This document shows, piece after piece, positions 6,311 through 60,116 of a stretch of DNA of 62,969 nt. The notes beneath the pieces are model-generated. The model saw only the letters and a list, made by a program, of their open reading frames with translations, did not search any database and was not told where the DNA came from. Numbering within the stretch: the stretch's first letter is position 1; every line of letters begins with the position of its first letter. Source of the stretch: Acidobacteria bacterium Ga0077522 (GTDB taxonomy: Bacteria > Acidobacteriota > Vicinamibacteria > Vicinamibacterales > Vicinamibacteraceae); the NCBI GenBank assembly GCA_001464065.1, contig LNDN01000013.1, positions 1-62,969 on the forward strand, written 5' to 3'. The position numbers were made by a program, and so were the translations under genes.

Positions 6311-6380
6311 GGGAAACGGGAACCGGGAATCGGGAATCGGGAATCGGGAATCGGGAGTCGGGAGTCGGGAGTCGGGAGTC
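6311..6380. repeat. Perfect-period heptamer array, 10 units
   Basis: Ten uninterrupted 7-bp units: GGGAAAC, GGGAACC, four GGGAATC, four GGGAGTC. Sequence changes occur in blocks, as expected from slippage spreading variants. The array ends 6 bp before the PfkB start codon and 40 bp after the MTA phosphorylase stop. Confidence 0.97.
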
Positions 6381-6420
6381 GGCCAGCGGCGGAGGCACGA
6401 AGGCCGAACGACGACCGACG

Positions 6421-23114: not shown

Positions 23115-23260
23115 AAATGCTGAAATGCTGGAATGCCGAAATGCTGAAGAGCGAAGAACGAAGAACGAAGAACGAAGAAACAAAGGTCGAAGTCAAAAGG
23201 GCTGAGGTCGAGAGCGAACCGCGTCATCCCCGCATTGCGGCATGGCGGCATTCCGGCATG
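23115..23260. repeat. Mixed heptamer cluster with inverted arms
   Basis: Left part: four 8-bp units (AAATGCTG, AAATGCTG, GAATGCCG, AAATGCTG; 23115-23146). Middle: AAGAGCG, three AAGAACG, AAGAAAC (23147-23181), then AAGGTCG-like words. Right part: CGGCAT, CGGCATT, CGGCATG (23238-23260), the inverted complement of the left words. The 207-bp gap between lnt and prfB contains nothing else except the prfB ribosome site. Confidence 0.85.
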
Positions 23261-42602: not shown

Positions 42603-42706
42603 GGCCTTCGTCATTCGGCCTTCGGCCTTCGTTGTGCCCTTCACGCGTCGACCTTTCCCTCTTCGACCTTCGACCTTCGGCATTCGGCATTCGGCATTCG
42701 GCATTC
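42603..42706. repeat. Heptamer arrays between mutase subunits
   Basis: First block 42603-42630: GGCCTTC, GTCATTC, GGCCTTC, GGCCTTC. Second block 42665-42706: two GACCTTC and four exact GGCATTC. These words are complements of AAGGCCG, AAGGTCG and AATGCCG used at 23115-23260 and 58466-58518. The gap separates two subunits of one enzyme. Confidence 0.92.
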
Positions 42707-51021: not shown

Positions 51022-51711
51022 CTACGCGTCCCTCAGCCAGGCGCCAGGCCCCTCGAGGAACGCCTCGTAGTCGGTCAGCACGGCATGCGGGGCCGGGATG
51101 TGGGCATTGAACTGCTCCACCGAGAAGGTCGTCGCCACGCCGACGCAGACCATGCCGGCCCCGACGGCGGCCGCCACGCCGATCGGCGCGTCCTCGAAGG
51201 CCAGACACTCGTCCGGCGGCACCTGCAGTCGCTGCGCGGCCAGCGCGAAGACGTCCGGGAATGGCTTGCCGCGCGGCACTTCGTCCCCGCGCGCGATGAT
51301 CGTCAGGCGGGCATCCAGGCCCGTCTCCGCGAACGTGTGCACGACGTTCTTGAGCGGCGCCGACGTGGCCACCGCGACGCCGATGCCATGCGCCTCGAGT
51401 CGGGCGAGCAGGGTCAGCGCCCCGCGCACCGGCACCAGCCGGCCACGCGACAACTGCCGGTAGGCCCCCTCCTTGTCCTCTTCGAGTTGCAGCATCTCGT
51501 CCATCGACATCTCGCGCTCGAACAGCATCGGGAAGATCTCGCTGTTGCGCTTGCCGTCGATGCGGCGACGCAGGTCCATCGTCAGCGGCGGTAACCCGTG
51601 CGCCTCGGCGAACCGCTCGAACGCCTGCGCGTGCAGCGACATGTTGTCGACGAGTGTGCCGTCCAGGTCGAAGACGACGGCGCGGGGGCGAAAGGCAGAC
51701 AGATCGGTCAC
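51022..51711 (-). CDS. HAD-superfamily phosphatase (beta-phosphoglucomutase-like)
   Basis: 229 residues. Motif I is VVFDLDGTLVDNMSLH (nucleophile Asp), motif II is in VAVATSAP, motif III Lys in PRGKPFPDVF, and motif IV is LAFEDAPIGVAAAVGAG. The cap insert after motif I (HAQAFERFAEAHGLP, KRNSEIFPML) is the C1 helical type of the PGM/phosphonatase branch. Sugar-phosphate phosphatase or mutase; substrate unknown. The GTG start is followed upstream by GGTCTCA heptamers. Its stop touches the convergent PEGA stop. Confidence 0.9.
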   Translation of the reverse strand: MTDLSAFRPRAVVFDLDGTLVDNMSLHAQAFERFAEAHGLPPLTMDLRRRIDGKRNSEIFPMLFEREMSMDEMLQLEEDKEGAYRQLSRGRLVPVRGALTLLARLEAHGIGVAVATSAPLKNVVHTFAETGLDARLTIIARGDEVPRGKPFPDVFALAAQRLQVPPDECLAFEDAPIGVAAAVGAGMVCVGVATTFSVEQFNAHIPAPHAVLTDYEAFLEGPGAWLRDA

Positions 51712-51713
51712 AG

Positions 51714-51734
51714 GGTCTCAGGTCTCAGGTCTCA
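51714..51734. repeat. GGTCTCA x3 heptamers
   Basis: Three exact units. The GNAT stop codon (51725-51727) is inside the middle unit, and the repeats encode its last residues. Confidence 0.85.
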
Positions 51735-57163: not shown

Positions 57164-57240
57164 GGCGCACAGGATACCCGCCTTCGCGCGAGTCCCAGAG
57201 CGGCGACCTGCGAAGGATGCCTGATGGCTTCGCCGGCGAC

Positions 57241-57290
57241 TGTAGCCGTCGACCTTCAGGTCGACGGTCCGTTCGCGGGTCGCCCCTACA
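57241..57290. repeat. 50-bp palindromic element (REP-like)
   Basis: Outer arms begin TGTAG and end CTACA. Inside is a perfect 10-bp inverted repeat with a 2-bp spacer (CCGTCGACCT at 57246-57255, AGGTCGACGG at 57258-57267) and an imperfect second hairpin around GGTCGCCCC. Located 8 bp upstream of the hydrolase GTG. Confidence 0.75.
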
Positions 57291-57298
57291 ATGCCAGC

Positions 57299-58459
57299 GT
57301 GCGTCTGCTGCTGATGGGGGGCGTCGTCGTGCTCGCGCTGCTGCTGGTCGGCTGGCTCGGCCTGTCGCAGAGCCGGTACGGACGCGCGATGTCGCTGCTC
57401 GTCCGGATGGGCAAGGTGCCGGGCCCGGTGGCCGCGCACATCGGCGGCTGGCAGACGACCACGGTGGACCGCGTCATGCTGTCGTTCACCGGACGGCACG
57501 GCGACCGTGTCGCCAGACTCTACCGCCCGCAGCGCGTCCGCACGCGCCCGCTCCTGCTCAGTGGTGGCGTCCACGCACTCGGCATCGACGAACCGCGCCT
57601 CATCGCCTTTGCCGAGGCGCTCGCGCGGTCCGGCACGCCGGTCGTGACGCCGTCGCTGCCCGATCTCAAGGAGTACCGCATCACGCCGCGCCTCACCGAC
57701 GACATCGAGGACGCCGCGCTGGCCGTCCTCGCGGCGGCCGAGGTGCCACAGGATGCCGACGGCCGCATCGGGCTGCTCGGCATCTCCTTCGCGGGCGGTC
57801 TGTCCATCGTCGCCGCCGGGCGCGAGGCGCTGCGCGACCGGGTGGGCTTCGTGTTCTCGGTCGGGGGGCACGCCCGCCTGCCCGGCGTCATGCGCTACCT
57901 GTGCACCGGCCGGCAGCCAGACGGCCGCCTGCATCCGCCGCACGAGTACGGCGCCGTCATCCTGCTGACCAACGTGGCCGAGGACGTCGTGCCGGCCGCC
58001 CAGGTCGCCCCGCTGCGCGCCGCGGTCCATCAGTTCCTGCATGCGTCGCACGTCGACATGTTCGACAAGCCGCAGGCGGCCGTGGAGTTCGCCCGCGCAC
58101 GCGCGATGGAAGAGGGCCTCCCGCCAGAGGCGCAGTCGCTCATGCACCTGGTGAACACGCGCGACGCCGCCGGCCTCGGCACACGCCTGCTGCCGTTCAT
58201 CGACCGCTGGGGCGCCGATCCCGCCCTGTCGCCGGCCAGTTCGCCGGCCCCACGCGCTCCCGTCTTCGTGATGCACGCGCAGGACGACGACGTGATCCCC
58301 GACAGCGAGGCCCCGGCCCTTGGCGCGTTCCTGCGCGGGCACGGCACGCCCGCGCGCGTCCACGTGACCTCGCTCATGAGCCACGCCGAGGTGGCACGCC
58401 CACCGACGGCGGGTGAACTGCTCACGCTGGTGCGGATGTGGGCGGAGTTGCCGTGGTGA
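57299..58459 (+). CDS. Membrane-anchored alpha/beta hydrolase
   Basis: 386 residues. An N-terminal anchor (VRLLLMGGVVVLALLLVGWL) is followed by an alpha/beta hydrolase domain: LLLSGGVHALGIDEPRLIAF, nucleophile elbow LLGISFAGGLSIVAAG (GxSxAG), late Asp in HAQDDDVIPDSE and His in SLMSHAEVAR. The GTG at 57299 was chosen because an earlier start would translate the palindromic element. Exact substrate (ester, lipid) unknown. The 3' end is followed 6 bp later by AATGCCG repeats. Confidence 0.82.
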   Translation: MRLLLMGGVVVLALLLVGWLGLSQSRYGRAMSLLVRMGKVPGPVAAHIGGWQTTTVDRVMLSFTGRHGDRVARLYRPQRVRTRPLLLSGGVHALGIDEPRLIAFAEALARSGTPVVTPSLPDLKEYRITPRLTDDIEDAALAVLAAAEVPQDADGRIGLLGISFAGGLSIVAAGREALRDRVGFVFSVGGHARLPGVMRYLCTGRQPDGRLHPPHEYGAVILLTNVAEDVVPAAQVAPLRAAVHQFLHASHVDMFDKPQAAVEFARARAMEEGLPPEAQSLMHLVNTRDAAGLGTRLLPFIDRWGADPALSPASSPAPRAPVFVMHAQDDDVIPDSEAPALGAFLRGHGTPARVHVTSLMSHAEVARPPTAGELLTLVRMWAELPW

Positions 58460-58465
58460 CGAGAG

Positions 58466-58518
58466 AATGCCGCGATGCCGGAACGCCGCAATGCCGAAGG
58501 CCGCGATGCCGAAGGCCG
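58466..58518. repeat. Short repeats, left flank of four-helix gene
   Basis: AATGCCG, CGATGCCG, GAACGCCGC, AATGCCG, AAGGCCG, CGATGCCG, AAGGCCG. Units of 7-9 bp that are the reverse complement of the CGGCATT words at 59131-59161. The rest of 58519-58744 has no gene; a 7-bp GC hairpin lies at 58631-58649. Confidence 0.8.
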
Positions 58519-58744
58519 CATGCTCGATGCGACGGCAGAGGCAACGTGATGACAGGCCGTCACGCCGGCCGCCAGTGAGATCTCGCCACGTCACGCGACG
58601 CAAGCTGCTCGAACGTTGCAGTTGATGCCACACCGCGAAGGGCGCGGTGGTGTTGAAGCTGCGACGTGGAGGCATCGCTCGGTGCGGGACCGCGCGCGAA
58701 CCGCCTGTGCGTGAACTGGCATGGGACGTGCCATCACCTCAGGC

Positions 58745-59110
58745 ATGCCGCGAGACATTCAGGAGCGGGCGTTCGCGCTTGCACTTCGCGTGGTGACTCT
58801 CGAACGAGACGACTCGTTCCGTGTCACCGTGCGGCGGGTGATCGTCGAACAGTTGGTCCGGGCGGCAACGTCCATCGGCGCGAATCTGGAGGAAGCGACG
58901 GGAGCGCAATCCAAAGCCGACTTCATCGCCAGAGTAGGCATCGCCCGCAAGGAGGCACGGGAGGTACAGTTCTGGCTTCGGCTGGGACAGGAAGCTGGGG
59001 TCGTGCAGGCCGCGGATTGGACCGGCCTGCTGCAGGAGGCGGAGGAGGTGTCGCGAGTGGTGTCGGCGATCGCCCGTAGCGCGAAGCGCTCACCGAGCCG
59101 CGGGGACTAG
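58745..59110 (+). CDS. Four-helix-bundle protein (23S rRNA-intervening-sequence family)
   Basis: 121 residues from ATG 58745 (an in-frame ATG at 58721 is possible). Family signature: VEQLVRAATSIGANLEEATG, AQSKADFIARVGIARKEARE and VQFWLRLGQEAG, with the long amphipathic helices of the S23/TIGR02436 group. These proteins pentamerise and, in related Avd, assist reverse transcriptases; no RT or rRNA is here. Function in this setting unknown. The gene sits alone between convergent genes and is bounded by inverted AATGCCG/CGGCATT repeats. Confidence 0.87.
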   Translation: MPRDIQERAFALALRVVTLERDDSFRVTVRRVIVEQLVRAATSIGANLEEATGAQSKADFIARVGIARKEAREVQFWLRLGQEAGVVQAADWTGLLQEAEEVSRVVSAIARSAKRSPSRGD

Positions 59111-59130
59111 CCTGCGGCGAGAGTGCCATC

Positions 59131-59161
59131 CGGCATTCCCGGCATTCAGCACCGCGGCATT
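59131..59161. repeat. CGGCATT repeats, right flank of four-helix gene
   Basis: CGGCATT at 59131-59137, 59140-59146 and 59155-59161, inverted relative to AATGCCG at 58466-58496. The last copy overlaps the rluB TAA stop (59160-59162). Confidence 0.85.
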
Positions 59162-60116
59162 ACTTGGTTCGCTTGCGCGGCCCCCGCTTGGGGGCGACGG
59201 CCCGGGCGTACTCCTTGAGCGTGATCTTCTTCGAGACGCGCTTCCTGGCCGCCTTCTTGGTCACGCGGGGCTTGCCGCCGACCGTGCGCGTGATGTGCTT
59301 GGGCGTCGGCGCGTGGCCGAAGCGGACGCCGGCCTGGGGCTCGGTGCTGGTGCGGGTCTTGGCCGGCGCGGGGCCCGCGGCGAGACCGGCGTCGGCCCGC
59401 AGTTGCTGCACCTCCGCCGGGCGCAGCTCGCGGTACATGCCGGGCTTCATGCGGCGATCGGTCAAGGTGCCGATGCTGGTGCGCGCCAGCGTGATTACCG
59501 GCAGGCCGACGGCCTGGCACATGCGACGCACCTGGCGGTTGCGGCCCTCGTGGATGACGATCTGCAACAGGGACTGCTCACCCGAGCTCTTGGTGAAGCT
59601 CTCGATGATGCGCACCCTCGCCGGTGCCGTGCGGCGGCCATCGAGCGGCACGCCCCCCTCGAGGCGGCGCAGGGTCTCGGTGGTCGGCACACCGAAGACG
59701 CGCACCTCGTAGGTGCGCGGCACCTCGTGACGCGGGTGCGTGAGCCGGTCGGCGAGTTCGCCGTCGTTGGTCAGCAGAATCAGCCCCTCGGAGTCGAAGT
59801 CGAGACGTCCGACCGGATAGAGGCCCTGCCCGGCCTGGCCGAGGAGCGTCAGCACGGTCGGCCGACGCTGTGGATCCGACCGGGTCGTGACGTAGTGCAC
59901 CGGCTTGTAGAGCAGGATGTACCGGCGCGGCACGGCCGTGTGCAGGCGACGACCGTCGACCTCGATGCGATCGACATCGGGATCGGCCTTGGCGCCGAGC
60001 TCGCTGGCGACCTCGCCGTTGACCCGCACGCGGCCTTCGGTGATCAGCGCTTCAGCCACGCGTCGCGATGCGACACCGGCGGCCGAGAGAATCTTCTGCA
60101 GGCGCTCCTGGGGCAT
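59160..60116 (-). CDS. rluB: RluB/RsuA-type rRNA pseudouridine synthase
   Basis: 318 residues. An N-terminal S4 RNA-binding domain (QERLQKILSAAGVASRRVAE) precedes the synthase core with catalytic Asp in GRLDFDSEGLILLTNDG, and YEVRVFGV, IHEGRNRQVRRMCQAVGLPV. It isomerises a uridine of 23S rRNA (RluB, U2605 in E. coli) most likely. A 60-residue Lys/Arg-rich C-terminal tail (TKKAARKRVSKKITLKEY to RGPRKRTK) exceeds the usual length and may bind RNA. Placement behind scpB is a widely conserved scpA-scpB-rluB order. Confidence 0.94.
   Translation of the reverse strand: MPQERLQKILSAAGVASRRVAEALITEGRVRVNGEVASELGAKADPDVDRIEVDGRRLHTAVPRRYILLYKPVHYVTTRSDPQRRPTVLTLLGQAGQGLYPVGRLDFDSEGLILLTNDGELADRLTHPRHEVPRTYEVRVFGVPTTETLRRLEGGVPLDGRRTAPARVRIIESFTKSSGEQSLLQIVIHEGRNRQVRRMCQAVGLPVITLARTSIGTLTDRRMKPGMYRELRPAEVQQLRADAGLAAGPAPAKTRTSTEPQAGVRFGHAPTPKHITRTVGGKPRVTKKAARKRVSKKITLKEYARAVAPKRGPRKRTK

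Follow-up and report, generated by a model that had tools for sequence, protein, structure and literature searches.

To our knowledge, no function has been assigned to S23 genes, which encode four-helix-bundle proteins and are present in many bacterial phyla, and the heptamer arrays of bacterial genomes have no accepted origin. The 23S rRNA intervening sequences (IVSs) of Coxiella and Leptospira hold an S23 open reading frame (ORF) between complementary, stem-forming ends; in Coxiella, the number of heptamer copies before the ORF differs among strains, and the IVS has been termed a selfish element (PMC4990558). In REPIN-RAYT systems, a gene sits beside its own repeat, which is dispersed as singlets and as inverted doublets that form hairpins, and one genome has several such genes, each tied to a separate group of repeats (PMC3116915). 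In a study of G-quadruplexes, Rehm et al. (2015) described GGGAATC repeats in Xanthomonas and GGGGA(C/T)T repeats in Nostoc, mostly noncoding and preferentially in four units, with 70 to 75 convergent inverted pairs per Xanthomonas genome; a link to mobile elements was generally not found, and the S23 gene is not mentioned (PMC4692102). Avd, the accessory protein that partners the reverse transcriptase of diversity-generating retroelements, is homologous to PF05635 proteins (PMC10053308).

The locus described here lies in Acidobacteria bacterium Ga0077522, in a window (the whole stretch of DNA that was analyzed) of 62,969 nucleotides, which is one whole contig of a 5.44-Mb genome. It resembles the 23S rRNA IVSs in its protein family and in the placement of an S23 ORF between complementary ends, as judged from a predicted fold and from a family-wide statistic. 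Unlike them, the window cassette lies outside the 23S rRNA gene, between a hydrolase-like ORF and a rluB-like gene, and the cassettes considered here are intergenic, with arrays on both sides and a locus-specific word that is common to dispersed arrays. As with REPIN-RAYT, the S23 gene is flanked by a repeat dispersed in the same genome, and inverted doublets are present as short hairpins. However, S23 is a four-helix bundle and not an IS200-like tyrosine (HUH) transposase (only four-helix/S23-type models match it), and its arms are tandem heptamers, not REP palindromes. Because the cassette has the form of an IVS but lies outside rRNA, and has a REPIN-RAYT-like population but neither a RAYT nor REP palindromes, we assign it to neither class. 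The repeats of Rehm et al. are the same as those seen here, and the arms of the Xanthomonas S23 gene are GGGAATC. Among the neighbors of the window gene there is no reverse transcriptase or TR/VR pair of a diversity-generating retroelement. Among the open-access papers searched, we found none that links free-standing S23 genes to heptamer arrays, and the novelty of the link is provisional.

The S23 locus of the window

The S23 gene (58745..59110, + strand) encodes a protein of 121 amino acids that matches PF05635 (Pfam 23S_rRNA_IVP; E value, 8.9e-21; 74.5 bits against a curated cutoff of 33.8) and TIGR02436 (E value, 3.4e-23; 81.9 bits against a cutoff of 24) and has a relative of solved structure, PDB 2RLD (E value, 1.9e-14). 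The ATG at 58745 is preferred over an upstream ATG at 58721 because the start codon of the copy in a sister genome aligns with it. The left (5′) arm (58465..58523, + strand; Tandem Repeats Finder [TRF] 58465-58523) is a degenerate AATGCCG-type array with a period of 7/8/15 and is retained in the sister genome; the right (3′) arm (59130..59162, − strand) is made of CGGCATT words, the left arm's reverse complement. On the + strand, AATGCCG is found at 58466 and 58490 and CGGCATT at 59131, 59140, and 59155. The host flanks are a hydrolase-like ORF (57224..58459, + strand), conserved in three sister genomes, and a gene for a rluB-like rRNA pseudouridine synthase (59160..60107, − strand; PF00849, PF01479, and TIGR00093). 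The former has zero Pfam or NCBIfam matches, and its name, given in an initial sequence-only reading, is used without profile confirmation. The two neighbors are convergent, as shown by their ORF ends at 58459 (hydrolase) and, on the minus strand, 59160 (rluB-like). Thus, the arrangement that the sequence-only reading described, AATGCCG to the left and CGGCATT to the right of an S23-family gene between convergent neighbors, is present in full.

The window holds 15 copies of AATGCCG on both strands, compared with 6.85 ± 2.63 in dinucleotide shuffles, and none of 100 shuffles had as many as 15. Two AATGCCG words within 40 bp facing two CGGCATT words within 1 kb occur nowhere else in the window or in 400 kb of sister-genome sequence. 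Atypically, the window copy has ∼220 bp from the left arm to the start codon and worn arms, whose strict alignment score of 12 falls under the threshold of 14 used below and whose duplex energy, taken alone, is at just the 6% tail of random geometry. In the predicted whole-RNA fold of this copy, the two arms form the terminal stem (z = −2.9). The orthologous cassette of the sister genome has a 15/15 arm-arm match, AATGCCGCGATGCCG; for the window copy taken alone, these matching arms add support against a purely accidental neighborhood of gene and repeats.

Related words also form an inverted pair with no gene inside it at 23115..23260 (TRF rows; AATGCCG at 23132 on the + strand and at 23246 on the − strand). 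The sequence-only reading had this interval bracketed by the same inverted words as the S23 insert; the pair is there, and its words are related but degenerate (GAAATGCT/AATGCCG on the left and GCATTGCGGCATGGCGGCATT on the right), with a GAAGAAC array within. It is possibly a gene-less hairpin of the AATGCCG word family; that it represents a cassette left empty or decayed, as the sequence-only reading put forward, is conjecture. Elsewhere in the window, a 10-unit GGGAATC array lies at 6311-6382, a word that is also that of dispersed arrays and S23 arms in Xanthomonas and Solimonas; further heptamer arrays without an S23 gene lie at 416-475, 42603-42706, and 51706-51734 (CCCTGAG, GGCCTTC/TTCGGCA, and GGTCTCA).

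Inverted heptamer flanks across the S23 family

The genome of the window has nine family members, all of which were examined. The other copies mostly have inverted words of their own (CGGGAGT and its complement, GGGCTCA, GGGACAA, GGAGGA type, and others), and two are weak. AATGCCG/CGGCATT flanks as a trait of all S23 genes are therefore ruled out, the window copy alone having them. To score flanks irrespective of the word, the left flank was aligned to the reverse complement of the right flank with a strict score and a threshold of 14; a laxer score (+1/−1/−2) gave 17% positives at random positions and was dropped because its alignments ran through coding sequence. Family members were sought in the genome collection with an alignment of five sequences.

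In the order, 93 loci from 30 genomes were scored; 80.6% have matching inverted flanks at a score of ≥14, compared with 3.4% when flanks from two different loci are paired, 3.7% at random positions, and 15% in direct orientation. At a score of ≥25, the percentages are 49.5% for inverted flanks and 0.3%, 0.1%, and 5.4% for the respective controls. The pattern is the same in a cross-phylum set of 77 loci from Proteobacteria, Acidobacteria, Planctomycetes, Chloroflexi, Cyanobacteria, Bacteroidetes, Verrucomicrobia, and others (inverted, 85.7%; mismatched, 3.0%; nearby positions, 2.5%; direct, 13%), and the two S23 subfamilies, type A and type B, are alike in it. With equal flank length, 81% of 170 S23 loci reach 14, compared with 0 of 117 small control genes, each of which is bordered by intergenic space at either end; these controls are long nonoverlapping ORFs and not annotation derived. 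Inverted arrays are thus the rule in the family (81 to 86% against ∼3%), and S23 genes do not generally lack such flanks. We hold it practically certain that S23 genes are associated with inverted heptamer arrays. The association proposed from the sequence alone stands for inverted heptamer arrays generally and falls for AATGCCG/CGGCATT specifically, which flank a single one of the genome's nine copies. The window insert is an example of a compact cassette consisting of a heptamer array, an S23 gene, and an inverted array.

Could an ordinary host gene have come to lie by chance among intergenic microsatellites? The lineage is rich in heptamer arrays, some of which will be near any intergenic gene, but the controls with mismatched flanks, direct orientation, nearby positions, and small genes are all contrary to this explanation, and phyla whose loci have few other arrays show the pattern as well. 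For the family as a whole, the controls already refute this explanation, and we give it hardly any weight.

The arms are tandem heptamers, most often of four units (28 of 58 left arms and 31 of 61 right arms), with median lengths of 31 and 30 bp; they lie about 30 to 40 bp from the matched domain, and in Solimonas the S23 stop codon adjoins the 3′ arm. The density of arrays with a period of 7, 14, or 21 is 2.55 per kb up to 300 bp from the gene and 0.168 per kb at greater distances, a 15-fold difference. Aligned arm words have an RGGNNTC-like core, all five core positions being matched by 26% of arm words and by 4.6% of shuffled words, with the register fitted to the core in the same way for both. 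The S23 gene is under purifying selection (pN/pS, 0.09 to 0.36). The type A profile has a solved relative, 2GSC (Xcc0516; E value, 2e-37), and Xcc0516 is cited in PMC4990558 as four-helix bundles assembled into a homopentamer. The S23 protein has no known catalytic residues and no evident catalytic domain.

Dispersed arrays, gene presence, and junctions

Arm words recur away from the gene. In a set of 18 genomes, GGGAATC gave 181 hits in Xanthomonas and 33 in Solimonas, both of which have GGGAATC arms; 16, 13, and 7 hits in three genomes with related GGGA-word arms; and zero hits in the other 13 (because the 17-base hits overlap, they exceed the number of sites). AGGATTG hits came from three genomes with AGGATTG arms and, at a low count, from one more, and AGGGGCT was present in its own genome and one other. 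Thus, for the three words tested, the arm word is the word of the same genome's dispersed arrays. In the genus of the window, arrays far outnumber S23 genes, and many words are in use. Words present in both arms that recur in dispersed arrays in 400 kb of the sister genome (G001; a single contig of 7,480,314 bp) are ACTCCCG, AGCCCTG, and AAGGCCG (canonical forms); AAGGGAC, ACTCATG, and ACTGCCG, also both-arm words, are absent from dispersed arrays there, and of 18 arm words of other genera, none recurs. Gene-less hairpins of the same word, with ∼30-bp arms and loops of about 20 to 60 bp, are exemplified in Solimonas, Pseudoxanthomonas, Xanthomonas, and a metagenome-assembled genome.

At three Solimonas loci (L281, L282, and L283), paired GGGAATC arrays lie inside coding genes; the array at L282, in the linker of a putative dihydrolipoamide acyltransferase, is 30 bp long, so the reading frame is kept. 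At 1,236,882-1,237,868 of the sister genome (L220), a non-S23 gene (protein of up to 260 amino acids) lies inside a heptamer-type inverted pair, the sole such case in 463 kb.

The dispersed arrays bear on an explanation in which the arms act at the RNA level only, as a stem for RNase III cutting or for control of S23 translation, with the protein binding its own transcript and array spread being unrelated. The anatomy is that of 23S rRNA IVSs, which are cut by RNase III and, in Coxiella, have tandem heptamers before the S23 ORF (PMC4990558), and the predicted terminal stem of the window transcript agrees with it. This explanation leaves unexplained both the match of arm words with dispersed arrays of the same genome and the differing words between loci, and we think it improbable.

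Gene presence and array number are correlated in the order: RGGNNTC triplets have a median of 41.5 in 30 gene-bearing genomes and 0 in 10 gene-less genomes (Mann-Whitney P = 4e-4, not corrected for phylogeny), and in sampled DNA, TRF found 16 period-7 arrays in 344 kb from gene-bearing genomes (5 kb of which was masked) and 1 in 283 kb from gene-less ones. Arrays also exist without the gene. Two order genomes of one genus, G009 and G021, have 71 and 12 RGGNNTC hits and lack S23; an overlooked S23 gene was considered and rejected for such genomes, as the type B profile likewise found none. A Xanthomonas relative has retained arrays and lacks the gene. Two gene-less Solimonas relatives have 38 and 22 query matches, nearly all against the arms, and three gene-bearing relatives have one or two each; in the Solimonas set, S23 presence and the count of one-word arrays are uncoupled. 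The suggestion, made from the sequence alone, that the S23 family has a role in making or spreading the arrays draws support from the matching of words and from the correlation with gene presence but is weakened by arrays in gene-less genomes.

Comparison of junctions shows cassettes present and absent, with empty sites at the hydrolase-rluB, accB-accC-like, and metF-like junctions. At the hydrolase-rluB junction, the arms are shared by the sister genome, in which the S23 gene is frameshifted, and another relative has an AATGC-type array pair and no gene. The insert-free relative that the sequence-only reading had called for exists: in a third relative, the gene is absent, and hydrolase and rluB are ∼35 bp apart in total, with a short direct array only; this gene-free state may be ancestral or derived. 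In a genome of another family, a type A S23 gene is apparently at the same junction (L052, G011:C38); the window gene is type B, and the arm words differ, which suggests independent insertion. The Xanthomonas cassette lies between genes read as accB and accC; the outgroup junction is 14 to 27 bp, and outgroup homology stops near the arms. In Solimonas, homology to cassette-less relatives ends at the arm borders, and other hairpins occupy those sites. One genome has two nonorthologous S23 copies that are homologous from arm to arm. No clear target site duplication was found at the aligned empty and filled junctions, which are diverged. Several S23 copies look vertically inherited with their arms, and movement would thus be rare or old.

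Recent transposition between two Calothrix plasmids was considered and rejected: S23 lies inside a longer stretch of gene order common to both plasmids, so the pair is uninformative on transposition. The Calothrix S23 flanks match in inverted orientation with a score of 25.

The main rival explanation treats heptamer hairpins as a repeat family in their own right, made by slippage and quasipalindrome template switching or spread by another protein, and S23 as a passenger in the loop. Arrays and hairpins that occur without S23 favor it, as does the abundance of period-7 arrays in the genus away from S23. So does a junction in Solimonas relatives, upstream of a metF-like gene (L301, L302, L303, and L309), which is occupied in one relative or another by an S23 cassette, by a heptamer hairpin with a different word, or by REP-like palindromes of the GTAGGAGCGGC type and resembles a hot spot for hairpin elements; the varied occupants imply a site that attracts several kinds of hairpin. 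On the other hand, 463 kb (sister genome plus window) contains one S23-free heptamer-like inverted pair scoring at least 20, and a passenger would thus need near exclusivity. The conservation across phyla of four-unit arms beside the gene, together with purifying selection, suggests a function, and the arm-to-arm duplication demonstrates that the gene travels with its arms. We think a passenger S23 less likely than a part of S23 in array spread, yet more probable than arms that act in RNA only.

A candidate two-part repeat system

The gene with its paired arms keeps its form across phyla, has a word in common with dispersed repeats, and is present or absent as a unit. These observations suggest that gene and repeats are one hairpin-based selfish, or formerly selfish, system. 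By analogy with REPIN-RAYT, the S23 protein and the heptamer hairpins may constitute a two-part repeat system in which the protein helps the repeats to spread, a reading that we put slightly short of an even chance; the causal role of S23 is unproven because there are array-bearing genomes without the gene.

In such a system, the arms would pair across the S23 gene, either as RNA or as single-stranded DNA, and make a long stem like the ends of S23-encoding 23S rRNA IVSs. The four-helix protein would recognize the arrayed hairpin, in its own arms and in dispersed copies, and may assist its copying or reinsertion. Since the protein is without an evident catalytic domain, we propose that host or other enzymes would be borrowed for these steps. 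The nature of the nucleic acid intermediate and any benefit to the host are conjectural. A broader and more tentative proposal, which we hold to be possible but less probable than the two-part system itself, is that S23 proteins are trans-acting partners of an unrecognized, phylum-spanning class of heptamer hairpins, in which each gene would define and spread its own word and the 23S rRNA IVS would be a special case.

The association can be checked at once in annotated genomes because the family already has a name there and scanning its surroundings for repeats suffices. If the link is causal, one protein experiment would address the function of S23 and the origin of heptamer arrays together, and S23 IVSs in rRNA would be a case of a wider element. 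If S23 proteins are indeed trans-acting partners of the hairpins, this would account both for what a large protein family does and for where the heptamer arrays of bacteria come from.
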